Assembly: GCF_013340205.1 (NCBI RefSeq)
Contig: NZ_BJTG01000009.1
Span: forward strand, 1-64,000
Direction of reading: 5' to 3'
DNA from: Anaeromyxobacter diazotrophicus
Lineage (GTDB): Bacteria; Myxococcota; Myxococcia; Myxococcales; Anaeromyxobacteraceae
Length of the DNA stretch: 64,000 bases
This document shows, one piece after another, positions 33,450 through 46,040 of the stretch; the first letter of the stretch is position 1, and the number at the start of each line of letters is the position of its first letter. The position numbers and the translations under genes were made by a program. The notes beneath the pieces were generated by a model, which saw nothing but the letters and a program-made list of their open reading frames with translations, was not told the origin of the DNA and did not search any database.

Positions 33450-33462
33450 TAGGATGGGGCGG

Positions 33463-36400
33463 ATGAACGCCCCCGCGCCCGTCCCCCCGGTCGAGCCCGC
33501 GCCCTTCCGCGCCGAGGCGGCCGCCCGCGAGCGGCTGGCGCGCCTCGCCGCCCGCGCCACCCCCGCCACGCTCGAGCGCCTCACGGCGCTGTGCGCGCGC
33601 GCCGCCGACCCGGACCTGGCGCTGGCCGGCGTCGAGCGCTACGCCGACGCCGCCGGGGCGCTGCCGGACGCGCCGGCGCTGCTCGAGGCGCTCGTGCTCG
33701 TCTGCGGGGCGTCGCGGATGGTGGCGAGCCTGCTCGCGCGCGAGCCCGCCCTGCTCCGGCGCGCGGCCGGCTCACGCCGGCTCGACGCCCCGCGCGGCGA
33801 GGACGAGCTCCGGCGCCTGCTGGCGCGCGCCGCGGCCCGGCTCGACCCGGACGACGTCCCGGGGCTGCACCGGCTGCTCCGGCGCGTCCGCACCCGCGAG
33901 GTGGTCCGGATCGCGCTGCGCGACCTCCGCCGCGCGCGCATGAGCGAGGTGACCGGCGAGCTGTCGGCGCTCGCCACCGCCTGCCTGGACGCCGCCATCC
34001 GGTTCCACGACCGGCGGCTCCGCGCGCGCCACGGCGCCCCGGAGGGCCTCGAGGACCGCGAGCCCGGCGCCGGCTTCTGCGCCCTCGCCATGGGGAAGCT
34101 CGGCGCCCGCGAGCTCAACTTCTCCTCCGACGTGGACGTCATCTACGTCTACGGCCCGGACGGCACCACCGCGGGGGGCGTCACCCACTTCGCCCACTAC
34201 GCGAAGCTCGCCGAGCTCGTCACCGAGGCGCTCGCCAAGCCCACCGACGACGGGTTCGTGTTCCGGGTCGACCTGAACCTGCGGCCGGACGGCCGCAGCG
34301 GCCCCATCGTGAACAGCGTCCGCGCCGCCGAGCTCTACTACCAGTCGTTCGGGCGGTCGTGGGAGCGGAACGCGCTCGTCAAGGCGCGGCCCGCCGCCGG
34401 CGACGTGGCGGTGGGGGAGGAGCTGCTCCGGTGGCTCGAGCCGTTCGTCTGGCGCCGCTCGCTCGACCTCGAGATCGTGGCCGAGATCCAGGCCATGAAG
34501 GCGCGCATCGACGCGCGCGCCGGCGCCGAGGGGCGCGACAACCTCAAGCTCGGCAAGGGCGGGATCCGCGAGGTCGAGTTCTTCGTCTCGGCGCTCCAGC
34601 TGCTCCACGGCGGGAAGTCGCGCGAGCTGCGCGAGCGGGCGGTGCTGCCCGCCCTCGACCGGCTGCTCTTCGCCGGGGTGGTGCCCGCGCGGGAGCGCGA
34701 CGCGCTGGCGGACGCGTACCTCTTCCTGCGCCGCGCCGAGCACCGGGTGCAGATGGAGGACGGGCGGCAGACGCACGCCCTGCCCCCGCCCGAGGAGCGG
34801 GCGTGGCTGGCGCGGGCGATGGGGTACTCCAGCCTGCAGCGGTTCGAGGAGCAGCTGGCGGCGCACCGCGAGCGGGTGGCCGCGCTGTTCGCGGACGTGC
34901 TCGGGCGCGGCGCGGAGGAGGTGAAGCTCGACCCCGAGCTCTCGCTCCTCGCCGACCCGACCGTGCCCGACGAGCGCCGGGTCGAGATCGCGCTCCGCCG
35001 CGGGCTCTCCGACCCCGACCGCGCCCTGGCCGCGCTCGACGCCCTGGGCCGCCGCCGCACCCCATTCGCCCACTCGGGCGATCCGGTCGCCGCCGTCGCG
35101 CTCCTGCAGGAGGCGCTCGCGACGCCCGACCCCGACCAGGCGCTGGGCTTCCTGGCCGACTTCGCCGCCGCCCTCCCCAACGCCGAGCCCTACTTCCGGC
35201 TCCTTTCGCAGAACCACCGGGTGGCGCGGCTGCTCCTGTCGCTGTTCGGCACCTCCGACTTCCTCTCCAAGCGCTTCCTGCGCCACCCCGAGCTGCTCGA
35301 CGCGCTCCTGCGCGAGGACTCGGTGGTGCTGGCGAAGGGGCGGGACGCCTTCCAGCTCGAGCTCGAGGCGCGGCTCGCGCCGCTGGCGCGCCCGGCCGAG
35401 GGCCTCGACCAGAGCCTCGAGGACCAGCTGGGCGAGCTGCGCCGCTACAAGAACGAGGAGGTCCTGCGCATCGCGGTGCACGACATCGCCGGCGCCCTCC
35501 CGCTGGCCGGGGTGGCGGCCCAGCTCTCCGACCTGGCCGAGGTGTCGCTCGAGCGGTGCCTCGCGCTCGCCGAGCAGGAGGCGCGCGAGAAGGGGCGGCT
35601 GCCGCAGCACCGCCTGTGCGTCATCGCCATGGGGAAGCTGGGCGGGCGCGAGCTCGGCTACCACTCCGACCTCGACCTCGTCTTCCTCTACCGCTCGCCC
35701 CCGGGCGACGAGGCGGCGCCGCACTCCTCGCACGGCGACTACGCGCGGCTGGCCCAGCGGCTCATGTCGTTCCTGCAGATGCCCCTGCGCGAGGGCTTCC
35801 TGTGGAAGATCGACACCCGGCTCCGCCCCTCCGGCAACCAGGGGGCGCTCGTCACCAGCGCGGCTGGCTTCGCCCGGTACCACGTCGGCGGCGAGGGCGT
35901 GGCGCCGGTGCGCAGCCAGCTCTGGGAGCGGCAGGCGCTGCTCCGGGCGCGCTTCGTCGCCGGCGACGCGGCGCTGTTCGAGGAGGTGCAGGCCCGGGTG
36001 CTCGTGCCGGCGCTGTGGAGCCGCCCCGCCGACCCGGCCCAGCTCGCCCACGAGATCCGGCGCATGCGCGAGCGGATCGAGGCCGAGATCGGGAAGGAGG
36101 CGGAGCGCGGCCCGAACCCGAAGTCCGGCCGCGGCGGCCTCATCGACGTGGAGTTCGCCGCCCAGTTCCTCCAGCTCGCGCACGGCCACGCCCACCCGTC
36201 GGTGCGGACGCCCTCGACCCCGGTCGCGCTGCGGCGCCTGCGCGAGGCGGGCCTCCTCGCCGACGCCGAGCACCAGGCGCTCGCCAGCGGCTACGAGTTC
36301 CTGCGCCGGCTCGACCTCCGCCTCCGCATCGTCCACGACTACACGGTGGACCACCTGCCGCAGGGCCGCGGGCTCGTCCAGCTGGCGCGCCGGCTCGGCT

Positions 36401-36492
36401 ACTACGGCGAGGACCCCTCCGCCCGCTTCCAGGCCGAGTACCGCCGGGTCACGGCCGAGGTGCGCGCCGCCTTCGACGAGGTGGTGCGGTAG
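33463..36492 (+). CDS. glnE: Bifunctional glutamine synthetase adenylyltransferase/deadenylase
   Basis: Adds and removes AMP on glutamine synthetase in response to nitrogen status. The 1009-residue product has two nucleotidyltransferase domains: the deadenylating one with AMGKLGARELNFSSDVDVIY (about residues 207-226) and the adenylylating one with AMGKLGGRELGYHSDLDLVF, each followed by its GlnD-PII-like helical domain. The catalytic Asp pairs are intact. An in-frame ATG at 33454 is an alternative start. TAGGAT ends 7 bases before ATG 33463, overlapping the previous gene's stop region, so it may be both cotranscribed and separately started. Confidence 0.95.
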   Translation: MNAPAPVPPVEPAPFRAEAAARERLARLAARATPATLERLTALCARAADPDLALAGVERYADAAGALPDAPALLEALVLVCGASRMVASLLAREPALLRRAAGSRRLDAPRGEDELRRLLARAAARLDPDDVPGLHRLLRRVRTREVVRIALRDLRRARMSEVTGELSALATACLDAAIRFHDRRLRARHGAPEGLEDREPGAGFCALAMGKLGARELNFSSDVDVIYVYGPDGTTAGGVTHFAHYAKLAELVTEALAKPTDDGFVFRVDLNLRPDGRSGPIVNSVRAAELYYQSFGRSWERNALVKARPAAGDVAVGEELLRWLEPFVWRRSLDLEIVAEIQAMKARIDARAGAEGRDNLKLGKGGIREVEFFVSALQLLHGGKSRELRERAVLPALDRLLFAGVVPARERDALADAYLFLRRAEHRVQMEDGRQTHALPPPEERAWLARAMGYSSLQRFEEQLAAHRERVAALFADVLGRGAEEVKLDPELSLLADPTVPDERRVEIALRRGLSDPDRALAALDALGRRRTPFAHSGDPVAAVALLQEALATPDPDQALGFLADFAAALPNAEPYFRLLSQNHRVARLLLSLFGTSDFLSKRFLRHPELLDALLREDSVVLAKGRDAFQLELEARLAPLARPAEGLDQSLEDQLGELRRYKNEEVLRIAVHDIAGALPLAGVAAQLSDLAEVSLERCLALAEQEAREKGRLPQHRLCVIAMGKLGGRELGYHSDLDLVFLYRSPPGDEAAPHSSHGDYARLAQRLMSFLQMPLREGFLWKIDTRLRPSGNQGALVTSAAGFARYHVGGEGVAPVRSQLWERQALLRARFVAGDAALFEEVQARVLVPALWSRPADPAQLAHEIRRMRERIEAEIGKEAERGPNPKSGRGGLIDVEFAAQFLQLAHGHAHPSVRTPSTPVALRRLREAGLLADAEHQALASGYEFLRRLDLRLRIVHDYTVDHLPQGRGLVQLARRLGYYGEDPSARFQAEYRRVTAEVRAAFDEVVR

Positions 36493-40988: not shown

Positions 40989-41903
40989 ATGGACAAGGCG
41001 AACAAGATCTGGCTCGACGGGAAGCTCGTCGCGTGGGACGACGCGAAGGTCCACGTGCTCACGCACGCGCTGCACTACGGGGTGGGCGTGTTCGAGGGCA
41101 TCCGCGCCTACAAGACGGCGGGCGGGCGCTCGGCCGTGTTCCGGCTCCGGGAGCACATGCAGCGGCTCTACGACTCCGCGCACGTGCTGCTGATGGAGAT
41201 CCCCTACCCCATCGAGCGGCTGCACGAGGCCTGCCTCGAGACGCTACGGGCCAACGGCCAGGCGGAGGGCTACATCCGGCCGCTCGCCTTCTTCGGCTAC
41301 GGCAGCATGGGCGTCGGGGCGGTGAACCCGGTCCAGGTCACGATCGCGAGCTGGCCCTGGGGCGCGTACCTCTCGGACGAGGGCCTGAAGCGCGGCATCC
41401 GGGCCAAGGTCTCCTCGTTCAACCGGCTCCACGTCAACGTGAACATGGTCCGCGCCAAGGTGAGCGGGCAGTACGTGAACTCGTTCCTGGCCAACCGGGA
41501 GGCGACCCTGTCCGGGTTCGACGAGGCCATCCTGCTCGACACCGACGGCTACGTCGCCGAGGGCTCGGGCGAGAACCTCTACATCGTGAAGGACGGCACG
41601 ATCTTCACGCCGCCGCTCTCCTCGCCGGTGCTGGCCGGCATCACCCGCGACTCGGTGCTCCGGATCGCGAAGGACCAGGGCATCCCGGTGTGCGAGCAGA
41701 AGTTCACCCGCGACACGATGTACCTGGCCGACGAGCTCTTCATGACCGGCACCGCGGCCGAGGTGACGCCGGTGCGCGAGGTGGACCACCGGCGCATCGG
41801 CCGGGGCGAGCCGGGGCCGGTGACGAAGAAGATCCAGGAGGAGTACTTCAAGGCCGTCCACGGCGAGACGCCGAAGTACGAGAGCTGGCTCACGTACTAC
41901 TGA
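40989..41903 (+). CDS. ilvE: Branched-chain amino acid aminotransferase
   Basis: PLP enzyme interconverting Leu/Ile/Val and their keto acids. The 304-residue product starts [20 protein letters not shown] and has FEGIRAYKT, the catalytic Lys region [18 protein letters not shown], and [10 protein letters not shown], as in class IV IlvE. A weak promoter (TTGAAT 40954-40959, 17-base spacer, CATGTT 40977-40982) ends 6 bases before the ATG, so the mRNA could be leaderless; no ribosome-binding site is visible. No other ilv gene is nearby. Confidence 0.95.
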
Positions 41904-41939
41904 CGCGGCGCCCGCGAGCGCCCGCAGGCTCCCCAGGAA

Positions 41940-41979
41940 GATTTCGGCCGCCCGGTTGTTCTACGCGGCGGCCGAAATC
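41940..41979. promoter_or_regulatory. 13-bp perfect inverted repeat upstream of the Fic-fold gene
   Basis: Arms GATTTCGGCCGCC (41940-41952) and GGCGGCCGAAATC (41967-41979) around a 14-base loop, 36 bases after ilvE and ending one base before the -35 element of the next gene. It could be the ilvE terminator (no T-tract) or an operator for the Fic-fold gene. The AT ends make it stand out from ordinary GC stems here. Confidence 0.6.
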
Positions 41980-41980
41980 G

Positions 41981-42010
41981 TTGACCTTTCCCGCGCGTTT
42001 CGGCTACATC
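41981..42010 (+). promoter_or_regulatory. Sigma70-like promoter for the Fic-fold gene
   Basis: TTGACC at 41981-41986, an 18-base spacer and TACATC at 42005-42010. The predicted transcript starts near 42017, leaving about 26 bases of leader with GAGGAG before ATG 42043. This is a conventional leadered promoter, unlike several neighbours. Confidence 0.6.
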
Positions 42011-42042
42011 GCGCACCCGCGCCGGACCCAGACGAGGAGCAC

Positions 42043-42807
42043 ATGCGGAGCCGCTATCTCGACATCGACGATCGCACCCAGGACCTCGCGGAGCTGCTCC
42101 GCGATCGGCCCGCGATCGCACAGGATTTCACCCGGATGTACGAGCTGTCGTGGATTTACCACGACAGCGCGCTGGAGGGCGTCGTCTACAGCGGGCAGGA
42201 GATCGAGGTCGCGCTCGCCGGCCAGATGCTGGCCGAGGCCGGCAGCATGGCGATGTTCCGGGACATCCGGAACGCCAAGGCGGCGGTGGAGGTGGTCCGG
42301 GCCGAGGCCTCGGCCAAGAAGCTCAAGATCACGCTCCCGCTGGTGAAGCAGCTCAACGCCGCCCTGCACGCCGGCAACGAGGCGCGCGCCAACGCCGACT
42401 TCCGCAAGGACATCCCGCTGCACCGGGCCTACTTCCACGAGATCGTCCAGCCGGCGCAGATCCCGGCGCAGCTGGCGGCGGTGCTGGAGCTGTGCGAGAC
42501 GGCGGACTTCAAGGCCGCCCACCCCATCCAGCGCGCGTCGAGGCTGCAGCACGGGTTCATGCACGTCTACCCGTACACCGAGGGCTCGGGCCGCATCGCG
42601 CGCCTCCTCGCGAACCTCATCCTGCTCCACGAGGGCTACCAGCCCTGCGTCATCCACACCATCGACCGGCAGCGCTACTACGAGTCGCTGAAGCTCGCCG
42701 AGCCGGCGCTGCGGGAGCTCATGATGGACTCGATGGAGAACGCGCTCACGAGCGCCGAGAAGTACTGCCGCGAGGCGGCGGCGGCCCACCGCAAGCTCGC
42801 CCGCTGA
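42043..42807 (+). CDS. Fic-fold protein with altered catalytic motif
   Basis: A 254-residue product with a GAGGAG site before ATG 42043. The Fic core helix reads HGFMHVYPYTEGSGRIARLL: aligned with the normal HPFxxGNGRxxR motif, the catalytic His position is Tyr (Y176) and the Asn is Ser (S182), while Glu180, Gly and both Arg remain. An N-terminal HDSALEG segment resembles the autoinhibitory helix motif [S/T]xxxE, with Glu45 present. AMP transfer is therefore doubtful; it could be an inactive scaffold or use different chemistry. It has its own promoter with a large inverted repeat. Confidence 0.85.
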   Translation: MRSRYLDIDDRTQDLAELLRDRPAIAQDFTRMYELSWIYHDSALEGVVYSGQEIEVALAGQMLAEAGSMAMFRDIRNAKAAVEVVRAEASAKKLKITLPLVKQLNAALHAGNEARANADFRKDIPLHRAYFHEIVQPAQIPAQLAAVLELCETADFKAAHPIQRASRLQHGFMHVYPYTEGSGRIARLLANLILLHEGYQPCVIHTIDRQRYYESLKLAEPALRELMMDSMENALTSAEKYCREAAAAHRKLAR

Positions 42808-42884
42808 TCCGGGCCCCGCCCCGTCCCTCGACCCCAGGTCACCCGGCCCGCCGACGCCCCGACAGGGTGTAGGCGGGCGTGGCC

Positions 42885-42896
42885 AGGTCGCGACCT
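42885..42896. promoter_or_regulatory. nfo: 12-bp perfect palindrome at the endonuclease IV promoter
   Basis: AGGTCGCGACCT reads the same on both strands and sits just upstream of TATTGT/TATAGA (42899-42909), the likely -10 of the nfo gene. An operator in the promoter spacer is a reasonable reading; the regulator is unknown. Confidence 0.5.
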
Positions 42897-42920
42897 CCTA
42901 TTGTATAGAAGGCCGCTTCC

Positions 42921-43745
42921 ATGATCCTGGGTGCCCACGAAGGCGTAGCTGGTGGTGTCTCGACCGCGTTCGCCCGGGCCGAGGCCGACGGGGCGGAGTG
43001 CCTCCAGATCTTCACCCGGAACGTCCGCGGGTGGGCGGCGAAGCCGCTCGAGCCCGACGAGGTGGCGCGCTTCCGCGCGGAGTCCAGGCGCACCGGGTTC
43101 CCGGTGGCCGCCCACTCCACCTACCTCGTGAACCTCTGCTGCGCCGACGCCGACATCCGCCGGAAGAGCTGGGACGCGCTCGCGGACGAGCTCGCGCGCT
43201 GCGAGCAGCTCGGCATCCGCTGGCTCGTCTTCCACCCCGGGAGCCACGCCGACGAGGCGGAGGGGATCCGGACGGTGGCCGAGGGCATGGCCAGCGCGCT
43301 CGAGCGCTCCCCGGGGAAGGCGCGGCTCCTCGTCGAGACCACCGCCGGGCAGGGCTCGAACCTCGGCTGGCGCTTCGAGCAGGTGGCCGCCATCCGCGCC
43401 GCCGTGCCCGCCGCGCTGCGCCGCCGGGTGGGGGTCTGCGTCGACACCTGCCACCTCCACGCCGCCGGGTACGACCTCGCCACCCCGGAGGGCTACGAGG
43501 CCACCCTGGCCGAGCTCGACCGGACCATCGGCCTCGCGCGGGTGGAGGCGTTCCACCTCAACGACTGCAAGAAGCCGCGCGGCTGCCGCGTCGACCGTCA
43601 CGAGCACATCGGCCAGGGCACGCTCGGCCTCGAAGCCTTCCGGCGCCTCGTCAACGACCGGCGCTTCGCCGAGGTCCCGGCCTTCCTGGAGACGGAGCTG
43701 CGGTTCAAGGAGAACCTGGCCGTGCTCCGCTCGCTCCTCCGATGA
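42921..43745 (+). CDS. nfo: Deoxyribonuclease IV (AP endonuclease)
   Basis: Cleaves 5' to abasic sites in base-excision repair using a trinuclear zinc centre. The 274-residue TIM-barrel begins MILGAHEGVAGGVSTAFARA and carries the metal-ligand regions HSTYLVNL, LVFHPGSH, LLVETTAGQGSNLG, CVDTCHLHAAGYD, FHLNDCKKPRGCRVDRHEHI and the C-terminal LETEL. The latter is slightly unlike the usual LETP. ATG 42921 follows a -10-like TATAGA by 11 bases with no ribosome-binding site. Its stop overlaps the next gene (ATGA). Confidence 0.94.
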   Translation: MILGAHEGVAGGVSTAFARAEADGAECLQIFTRNVRGWAAKPLEPDEVARFRAESRRTGFPVAAHSTYLVNLCCADADIRRKSWDALADELARCEQLGIRWLVFHPGSHADEAEGIRTVAEGMASALERSPGKARLLVETTAGQGSNLGWRFEQVAAIRAAVPAALRRRVGVCVDTCHLHAAGYDLATPEGYEATLAELDRTIGLARVEAFHLNDCKKPRGCRVDRHEHIGQGTLGLEAFRRLVNDRRFAEVPAFLETELRFKENLAVLRSLLR

Positions 43746-44893
43746 AGCCCTCCCCTCGCGGGCCCCTCCCGCCCCACCACGACGTGCGCGCCCGCCACGC
43801 CGCCGCGCTCCACCGGGCGCCGCGGATGGCGGTGCTGCGGTCGAAGCTGACCGGCGAGGTGCGGCCGGGCGCCGACCCGCACCGCGTGAAGCTGGAGCGG
43901 CTGGTCCACTACGCGAAGGGCCACGCCCGGGCGCTCGTGCTCACGCACGACAACCCCGACCCGGACTCGATCGCCTCGGCGGTGGCGCTCGCCCACCTGC
44001 TGCGCCAGCTCGCGGGGGTGGAGGCGATCGTCGCCTACGGCGGGATCGTGGGGCGCGCCGAGAACCGGGCGCTCATCCGCGTGCTGAAGCTGCCGGTGGT
44101 GCCCATCTCGCGCGTCGTCTTCGACGACCACGACCTCATCTGCATGGTCGACACGCAGCCCGAGCAGGGGAACCACTCCCTGCCGGCGCGCCACTTCCCG
44201 GACGTGGTCATCGACCACCACCCCGAGCGGCCCGAGACGCGGCTCGCGCCCATCGCCGACGTGGGGGAGCAGGTCGGCGCGACGAGCACGGTGATGGTGG
44301 AGTACTTCCGCGCGAGCGGGCTCCCCATGCCGCCGCAGCTCGCGACGGCGCTCTACTACGGGGTGAAGGCCGACACGCGCGACCTCGGCCGCCAGACCAC
44401 GAAGGCCGACGTCGACGCCTACCTGTGGCTCTTCCCGATGGTCGACAAGGAGGCGCTGGGCGAGATCGAGCACCCGCGCCTGCCGCTCGAGTACTTCCAG
44501 CTCTACCACGCGGCCATCGAGCGGGCGCTCGTCTACGAGCACGCGGTGGTGTGCGACCTCGTCGAGGTGTACGCGCCGGACATGGTGGCGGAGGTGGCCG
44601 AGCGCTTCATGTTCCTCGAGGACGTGAAGTGGTCGGTGGCCTTCGGCGAGTACCAGGGGCAGCTCTACTTCTCGCTCCGCACCAGCGACCGGCGCATGAA
44701 CGCGGGGCGGCTCATCCGCGACGTCATCGAGGAGAAGGGCGGCTCGGCCGGCGGGCACGGCTCGATGGCGGGCGCCCGCATCCCCCTGAGCGGCATGGGC
44801 CCGCTGGCGCGCGCCCGCTTCAAGGCGGAGCTGGTGCAGCGCTTCCTCAGGGAGTTCGGCGTGCGCGCGCGCAAGGGCCGGCGCATGGTCTAG
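43742..44893 (+). CDS. DHH-family phosphoesterase
   Basis: A 383-residue protein overlapping nfo (ATGA). DHH motifs: THDNPDPDSIASA, a VDTQPEQGNHS region, VIDHHPERPETR with the DHH triad; the C-terminal DHHA1 motif is GGSAGGHGSMAGARIPL. This domain pair hydrolyses small nucleotides such as nanoRNA, pAp or cyclic dinucleotides. The N-terminal 45 basic residues are an extension. Coupling to endonuclease IV suggests nucleotide or DNA-end cleanup, but the substrate cannot be read from sequence. Confidence 0.88.
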   Translation: MKPSPRGPLPPHHDVRARHAAALHRAPRMAVLRSKLTGEVRPGADPHRVKLERLVHYAKGHARALVLTHDNPDPDSIASAVALAHLLRQLAGVEAIVAYGGIVGRAENRALIRVLKLPVVPISRVVFDDHDLICMVDTQPEQGNHSLPARHFPDVVIDHHPERPETRLAPIADVGEQVGATSTVMVEYFRASGLPMPPQLATALYYGVKADTRDLGRQTTKADVDAYLWLFPMVDKEALGEIEHPRLPLEYFQLYHAAIERALVYEHAVVCDLVEVYAPDMVAEVAERFMFLEDVKWSVAFGEYQGQLYFSLRTSDRRMNAGRLIRDVIEEKGGSAGGHGSMAGARIPLSGMGPLARARFKAELVQRFLREFGVRARKGRRMV

Positions 44894-44897
44894 CGGC

Positions 44898-46040
44898 ATG
44901 CACTACCTCGACCACAACGCCATCACCCCCATGCGCCCCGAGGCGAAGGCGGCCGTGACCGCCGCGCTCGAGGTCTTCGGCAACCCCTCCTCGGTCCACG
45001 CCCCCGGCCGCGCGGCGCGCGACCTGCTCGACCGGGCCCGCGAGCAGGTGGCGGCGGCGCTCGGCGCGCGCCCGCCGGACGTGGTCTTCACCTCCGGCGC
45101 GACCGAGTCCGCGGCGCTCGCCCTGCGCGGCGCGCTCGGCGCCGCCCCGGCCGGCCGGGACGAGCTCGTGGTCACGGCGGTCGAGCACCCCTGCGTCCTC
45201 TCGCTCGCCGAGGCGCTGCGCGCCGCCGGCCGTCCCGTGACGGTGCTGCCGGTGGACGCCCGCGGGCTCCCCGACCTCGCCGCCGCCGACCAGGCGATCG
45301 GGCCGCGCACGGCGCTCGTCTGCGCGATGGTGGCGAACAACGAGACGGGCGTCCTGCTCCCGGTGCGGGAGCTGGCCGCGCTGGCGCACGACCGCGGGGC
45401 GCTCTTCTTCACCGACGCGGTCCAGGCGGTGGGCAAGATCGAGGTCGACGTGCGCACGCTCGGCGCAGACCTGCTGGCGCTCACCGGGCAGAAATTCGGC
45501 GGCCCGCGCGGCGCCGGCGCGCTGTGGGTGAAGAGCGGGCTCAGGCTCGCGCCGCTCTTCGGCGGGACCCAGGAGCGCGGGCGGCGCGCGGGGACCGAGA
45601 ACCTGCCCGGCCTGGCCGGCCTGGGCGCGGCCCTCGAGGCCGCCGTCGCGCGCCGCGACGGCGAGCAGCGCCGCGCCGGCGCGCTCCGCGACCGGCTGGA
45701 GGCGGGGCTCCTCGCCGCGGTCCCGGGCGCGCGCGTGAACGGGGCCGGGGCGCCGCGCCTCCCGGGCACCCTCTCCGTCACCCTGCCCGGCGCCGACGCC
45801 GAGGCGCTCCTCATCGCGCTCGACCTGGAGGGCCTGTGCGCCAGCGCCGGGAGCGCCTGCCACTCCGGCTCGACGAAGCCGTCGTCGGTGCTCGCCGCGA
45901 TGGGCCTGTCGGTCGAGGAGGCGCGCGCGACCCTGCGCCTGTCCCTCGGCTGGACCAGCGACGCCGCCGACGTGGACGCCGCGCTCGAGGCCATCCCCCG
46001 CCTCGCCGCCCGGGTCCGGGCCGAGATCCACGCCGCCTAG
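44898..46040 (+). CDS. Cysteine desulfurase, NifS/IscS type
   Basis: PLP enzyme delivering sulfur from cysteine. The 380-residue product has YLDHNAITPM, VVFTSGATESAALAL, VEHPCVLS, the PLP-Lys in LTGQKFGGPRGAG, RAGTENLPG and the active Cys in LCASAGSACHSGS. The residue before the PLP-Lys is Gln instead of the usual His (normally SGHK), which is unusual. It starts 4 bases after the DHH gene. No iscU, iscR or tRNA-thiolation gene accompanies it, so whether it feeds Fe-S or tRNA modification is open. Confidence 0.9.
   Translation: MHYLDHNAITPMRPEAKAAVTAALEVFGNPSSVHAPGRAARDLLDRAREQVAAALGARPPDVVFTSGATESAALALRGALGAAPAGRDELVVTAVEHPCVLSLAEALRAAGRPVTVLPVDARGLPDLAAADQAIGPRTALVCAMVANNETGVLLPVRELAALAHDRGALFFTDAVQAVGKIEVDVRTLGADLLALTGQKFGGPRGAGALWVKSGLRLAPLFGGTQERGRRAGTENLPGLAGLGAALEAAVARRDGEQRRAGALRDRLEAGLLAAVPGARVNGAGAPRLPGTLSVTLPGADAEALLIALDLEGLCASAGSACHSGSTKPSSVLAAMGLSVEEARATLRLSLGWTSDAADVDAALEAIPRLAARVRAEIHAA

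Follow-up and report, generated by a model that had tools for sequence, protein, structure and literature searches.

A Fic-fold protein family without the catalytic histidine, conserved across the Myxococcota

A gene of Anaeromyxobacter diazotrophicus, found in a window of 64,000 nucleotides (the whole stretch of DNA analysed here), encodes a Fic-fold protein whose catalytic His has been replaced. The protein has the Fido fold in its FICD-like, single-chain form and is present in nearly all the genomes of its phylum that were searched. Work on Fic proteins has mostly concerned toxins, effectors or regulators of chaperones, reliant on a single His; the His-less family would be a case of a post-translational-modification fold turned to another function. 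One way to understand it, tentative and in our estimate close to an even chance, is that the Fic AMPylation centre was lost early and the site rebuilt around a His in the flap, with the anion-binding loop kept. The gene and the parts of it that matter to the argument are as follows.

42043-42807, + strand: His-less Fic-fold protein, 254 aa (open reading frame; Pfam; model and fold match)
42160-42180, + strand: inhibitory-helix-like segment HDSALEG, residues 40-46; H40 and G46 in 118 of 118 family sequences, position 45 Glu in 104 and Asp in 14
42403-42444, + strand: flap RKDIPLHRAYFHEI, residues 121-134; R121, Y130 and H132 in 118 of 118, H127 in 117, R128 in 113
42568-42603, + strand: FIC-loop motif YPYTEGSGRIAR, residues 176-187; P177, G183 and R187 invariant in the family
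42655-42681, + strand: segment HTIDRQRYY, residues 205-213; R209 and Y212 in 118 of 118

The reading frame is preceded by an AGGAG three bases 5' of the ATG at 42043, and Met occupies the start column in 26 of 30 aligned sequences; a scan of 41880-43000 with promoter and terminator patterns gave no match. Fic (PF02661) is the sole Pfam domain of the protein at E ≤ 1 (E 5.8e-11, 43.5 bits against a cut-off of 24). The loop motif had been placed at 42568-42597, a span that stops after the Ile; the full motif ends at 42603. In it an aromatic Tyr stands at the position of the catalytic His and Ser at that of the Asn, and both changes, which were the substance of the preliminary description, are real; the core reads GSGR against the canonical GNGR, with N alone changed. 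The window protein is a member of the Fic/Fido superfamily by profile and by fold (43.5 bits to PF02661; Z 29.7 to FICD), and its motif excludes it from the canonical Fic enzymes: the His of HPFx[DE]GN[GK]RxxR is Tyr here and Phe or Tyr in 118 of 118 family sequences, and the GNGR core (first Gly, Asn, second Gly, first Arg) is not preserved in the family. Nor is it a Doc protein by the His of Hxxx[DEN][AG]NKR, the motif as given in PMC4454073: no sequence of the 118 has His at column 176. A second Fic match in the same genome (4.83 Mb, 17 contigs) carries a canonical motif, HPFADGNGRTAR.

The 118 family sequences are distinct and near full length, and are what remains of 177 ORF matches after removal of identical and partial ones; the weakest of the 177 scores 197.6 bits, against 58.4 for the best canonical Fic. 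A less redundant set holds 86 sequences, 29-67% identical to the window protein. At position 176, that of the catalytic His, the family has Phe in 104 sequences, Tyr in 14 and His in none; with His lacking in all 118, the change in the window protein is no accident of a single copy. At position 182, that of the Asn, Ser is found in 106, Thr in 9, Asn in 2 and Ala in 1. The metal-ligand position, 180, is Glu or Asp in 101 and lacks an acid in 17; the first Gly (181) is Gly in only 16; the first Arg (184) is Lys in 80 and Arg in 26, and the loop mostly ends SG[KR]xxR. P177, G183 and R187 are each present in 118 of 118. Outside the loop, Y213 is found in 112. In the inhibitory-helix-like segment the position of the inhibitory Glu is Glu or Asp throughout, and the Ser/Thr position is Asp or Glu throughout (118 of 118 in both cases).

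These counts modify several details of the preliminary description. It had proposed asking whether Tyr and Ser are conserved across a clade. His never occurs at 176, and Phe is commoner there than Tyr, so Tyr itself is not the conserved feature. The phosphate-binding Arg residues, described as kept, are kept in the case of the second, R187; the first is more often Lys. The likening of HDSALEG to an inhibitory helix gains from phmmer, which aligns it with the corresponding segment of a FICD homologue, but loses from the Asp at the Ser/Thr position of [ST]xxxE[GN]: of that Class II motif the Glu/Asp and the Gly are retained, and the Ser/Thr is not.

Conservation in the flap calls for some care, as 80 of the sequences were gathered with two peptide patterns, one of them in the flap, and flap conservation is inflated among these. 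The 21 sequences found without peptide patterns have R121, H127, R128, Y130 and H132 in 21 of 21. In the set of 86, R121, Y130, H132, H40, G46, R187, R209 and Y212 are invariant, with H127 in 85 and R128 in 81; counting polar residues and tyrosines together, seven never vary and another seven exceed 90%. The departures at H127 and/or R128 belong to the most distant lineages sampled (L145 and L150-L153), in which Y130 and H132 hold. In five loci of one family (f4, L048-L052) the flap is immediately preceded by an extra charged stretch of some 20 residues (alignment columns about 146-166), absent from the other rows.

The canonical Fic proteins of the same phylum give a measure of what has changed. 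They are represented by 27 rows from 40 loci: 7 loci were unusable, and L207 (a family member), L201 and L204 (with a short GNKR) and three identical copies were dropped. At the aligned columns all 27 have His, Asp, Gly, Asn, Gly and Arg without exception. P177, G183 and R187 are common to both groups, and so, for the most part, are Tyr 213, G46 (25 of 27), R121 (23), R209 (18) and Y212 (26). H40, H127, R128 and Y130 are particular to the family in the 86-sequence alignment. Columns 127-128 are gapped in 21 of the 27 canonical rows, and phmmer aligns the flap stretch otherwise against a FICD homologue. At column 132, 25 canonical rows have one of Tyr, Phe and His, and in 7 of them the residue is His, so that a His there is not by itself new. 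As the aligned columns have it, conservation has moved: at most of the canonical catalytic positions the residue is a different one or is no longer held constant, and H40 and the flap residues H127, R128, Y130 and H132 are invariant or nearly so, unlike in canonical Fic.

A first AlphaFold2 model, built with 21 sequences, had pLDDT below 50 at residues 116-133; with 86 sequences the blocks of 111-140 rose to 81, 77 and 94, and the model as a whole has pLDDT 94.2 and pTM 0.92. Its best fold match is human FICD, with TM 0.88 by query length (Foldseek and VIA-align) and, over 244 aligned residues, Z 29.7, rmsd 2.0 Å and 21% identity. A helix at 23-44, a candidate for the N-terminal inhibitory helix of Class II Fic proteins, precedes the Fic core, and the whole length of the model overlays FICD.

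A tree built from 35 rows of the family and 27 canonical ones places the family on one side of a branch with 100/100 support; when the motif and flap columns are removed it is still one group, with SH-aLRT at only 54. The canonical HPFxDGNGR proteins of the phylum group apart from it, and intact canonical Fic proteins are separate genes, both elsewhere in the phylum and in the window genome. The gene is under constraint, as had been supposed: the median dN/dS is 0.158 (range 0.021-0.324) in 235 close pairs, 85-99.5% identical with dS 0.1-1.2, which are not independent of one another. The simplest account of these sequences would be that the His was lost once, ahead of the diversification of the phylum, and that descent has since been mostly vertical. 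Four rows labelled as the window's order or as Myxococcaceae (L046, L137, L047 and L129) are placed apart from the main group of that order, and support is weak at many deep forks; transfer or long-branch effects may therefore have played a part, and descent may not have been strictly vertical.

The distribution is nearly complete. A profile of 21 sequences finds homologues at E < 1e-50 in 176 of 195 genomes of the phylum (142 of the 149 of high quality), and a match at E ≤ 0.001 in 185. The nine genomes with matches weaker than E 1e-50 were left out (G023, G058, G099, G115, G165, G166, G168, G175 and G183); the loci of six weak-match genomes (L154 and L156-L160) are canonical Fic genes, and that of G168 (L155) is a family fragment. 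With the window protein as query against 99 relatives, 96 have a match at E ≤ 0.001, among them all 82 of high quality, and at least one of the 96 (G058) is a weak match. No genome occurs twice among the strong matches listed in the phylum search. A genome of 1.3 Mb (G172, 99% complete) keeps the His-less gene as its only Fic match. Retention by 176 of 195 genomes, this small one included, points to a useful cellular role; the family is best read as a housekeeping Fido subfamily. A mobile role is unsupported: phages gave no match in the searches, and plasmids a single weak Fic match, at 29.5% identity over 73% of the protein length. These spread figures describe Myxococcota genomes, and the family may also occur in further phyla.

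A scan of contigs with the family's own conserved peptides found 161 relatives. Among the best 80 of the 161, the titles are myxobacterial or those of unclassified deltaproteobacteria or proteobacteria, save one record titled Comamonas sp. KCTC 72670 (L094). Its gene order is myxobacterial (pat, ilvE, AAA, fic, DHH, cysteine desulfurase), and for this reason the Comamonas label is probably wrong. The genome of G058 (9.8 Mb, 99% complete) is without a strong Fic-like match, and the DHH gene and the AAA copy that belongs to the locus are absent as well; the locus is thus missing from this genome, by deletion or by an assembly gap.

The gene lies in a run of genes on one strand, in the order ilvE-like, fic-like, nfo, DHH protein and cysteine desulfurase. 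Its neighbours in the window are these.

40989-41903, + strand: class IV aminotransferase, ilvE-like, upstream (Pfam PF01063), which we take to be ilvE
42921-43745, + strand: deoxyribonuclease IV (Nfo), downstream (sequence match)
43742-44893, + strand: DHH/DHHA1 domain protein, downstream (domain match)
44898-46040, + strand: cysteine desulfurase of the NifS/IscS type, downstream (sequence match)

Among 121 loci, in which some species figure twice from two collections, a DHH gene is found within 1.5 kb downstream in 77 of 105 usable loci, a cysteine desulfurase within 3.2 kb downstream in 66 of 99, nfo within 500 bp in 49 of 114 and ilvE within 2.2 kb upstream in 63 of 108. In 43 of 114 usable loci the Fic-like gene is preceded, on its own strand and by no more than 500 bp, by a gene for a 445-aa AAA protein; L165 and L175, from outside the class, also have this gene next to it. 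L171 carries a family ORF too, which the simple gene calling used for the neighbourhoods passed over. Several other lineages show none of the ilvE, nfo, DHH, cysteine desulfurase and AAA genes around the Fic-like gene, so the latter is kept without a fixed context. The AAA protein (as in L048:6594-7928, +) has a C-terminal AAA domain, and many genomes hold a second, more distant match elsewhere; read from its sequence, the N-terminal part may be DNA-binding-like.

If the site was rebuilt around the flap His, it might be put together as follows. In the family the Asp metal ligand, first Gly, Asn and first Arg of canonical Fic are replaced or relaxed, and the loop Pro, second Gly and second Arg are still there; the retained loop would hold the phosphate or diphosphate of a ligand, and the flap would close over it. 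From the alignment columns and the published geometry of the flap, R128, Y130, H132 and I134 would alternate so as to present one face to the pocket. In canonical Fic the flap aligns the backbone of the target, some flap residues face inward, and a Phe near the flap end packs on the catalytic His and the adenine, according to PMC8401265. H132 falls on the column of the canonical flap aromatic; the His and the aromatic may thus have been exchanged between flap and loop. A working site is favoured over a passive scaffold because seven polar or Tyr residues are invariant and seven more exceed 90% in 86 sequences; with the flap His, such a site might transfer or hydrolyse a small molecule that bears a phosphate, or might modify one fixed partner. 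A bolder form of the same idea, which we regard as unlikely, has the Fido active site inverted, with the His moved to the flap and the aromatic to the loop, a new mechanism, a housekeeping substrate and the standing of a core enzyme of the phylum. The conserved columns point out which residues would be worth mutating, and the gene is present in a genetically tractable species, Myxococcus xanthus (L109).

A reading that ranks second, possible though somewhat less probable than the rebuilt site, makes the protein a non-catalytic ligand sensor or adaptor: the phosphate pocket is retained, the flap closes on a nucleotide or diphosphate, and the closure is signalled to a partner such as the AAA-domain protein. 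Loss of the catalytic His from every sequence fits this, together with retention of G183, R187 and Y212 in all and of Y213 in 112, and so do the 43 loci with the AAA gene just upstream and its recurrence in L165 and L175; FICD itself accommodates farnesyl diphosphate in the ADP position, as an inhibitor (PMC12974487). The partner is the difficulty: a search of 24 genomes of Anaeromyxobacteraceae, the window's family, with its own genome among them, gave no match to the AAA protein at E ≤ 0.001 in any of the 24, and as an obligate partner it is rejected for that family. In our judgement, moreover, the invariant polar residues are more than a sensor usually needs. That the fold alone serves as a protein-binding scaffold, with the pocket irrelevant, is improbable. 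The proposal has been made for BepC, where a FIC domain works without being an active enzyme: its actin phenotype was unaffected when the motif was mutated and when the flap was exchanged (PMC7842960). The first Gly and the metal-ligand position do vary freely in the His-less family; the invariant residues, however, lie on the flap, the loop and the segments that line the pocket in canonical Fic, to judge from the alignment.

That the protein is a standard AMP transferase is very unlikely on its sequence, and the earlier judgement that it is probably not one is well supported at that level. A weak or substrate-assisted AMP transferase or de-AMPylase has only a slender chance. The fold is FICD-like, Glu or Asp holds the inhibitory-Glu position in 118 of 118, and a Doc clade with Gln for His has been argued to be perhaps not dead (PMC4454073). 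FICD, however, requires its His for both AMPylation and deAMPylation (PMC8373988), so neither activity would be expected of a His-less protein; and Phe, the commonest replacement, is incapable of acid-base chemistry. Decay of a canonical Fic gene, which two substituted hallmark residues might suggest, is hardly credible: Phe or Tyr in 118 of 118 and the median dN/dS of 0.158 speak against it, and the frames are open and the neighbours recur. A check of sister homologues for an intact HPFxxGNGR, which the preliminary description had named as the sign of decay, did not show it, with His in 0 of 118.

Comparison with known systems places the family nearest to FICD/HYPE and the bacterial class II Fic proteins. 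With these it shares the fold, the Glu/Asp-Gly of the inhibitory segment, the Pro, Gly and Arg of the loop and the Tyr-Tyr that follows; unlike them, it has no catalytic His, Asn in 2 of 118, a relaxed first Gly and first Arg, Asp or Glu for the inhibitory Ser/Thr, and a near-invariant flap. AvrB offers a precedent for a Fido protein that lacks the Fic motif and does another transfer, as a rhamnosyltransferase (PMC10866546). Its fold is alike (1nh1: Z 12.2, rmsd 3.3, 180 aligned), and small Pro and Gly residues of the loop are kept in a divergent motif (PMC2686095); AvrB, though, is a secreted effector of a plant pathogen with an inserted lobe, and ours is a chromosomal gene kept across a free-living phylum. 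AvrB-like Fido proteins are defined by rhamnosyl transfer from UDP- or dTDP-rhamnose, and the two are likened here by fold. Natural loss of the His with the fold kept is also seen in the FIC domains of Bartonella Beps, about a quarter of the 99 analysed having no Fic His (PMC8401265). Those are injected multidomain effectors with a strictly conserved PFxxGN; here the Asn is Ser or Thr in 115 of 118 and the first Gly varies. Doc clade D2 has a clade-wide Gln in place of the catalytic His (PMC4454073), in a Doc-type motif ending NKR, whereas the present family has Phe or Tyr and mostly SG[KR]xxR. Among the literature matches listed, no title or opening of an abstract describes the His-less family.

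Four loci from other classes each have, after the Fic-like gene and in its orientation, a gene whose length falls between 526 and 538 codons (L164:7074-8651, L169:6926-8539, L173:1595-3178 and L174:4249-5841); the four may or may not be of one family. A glutamine synthetase adenylyltransferase of the GlnE type is encoded upstream in the window, at 33454-36492, and is found near the same locus in several relatives.
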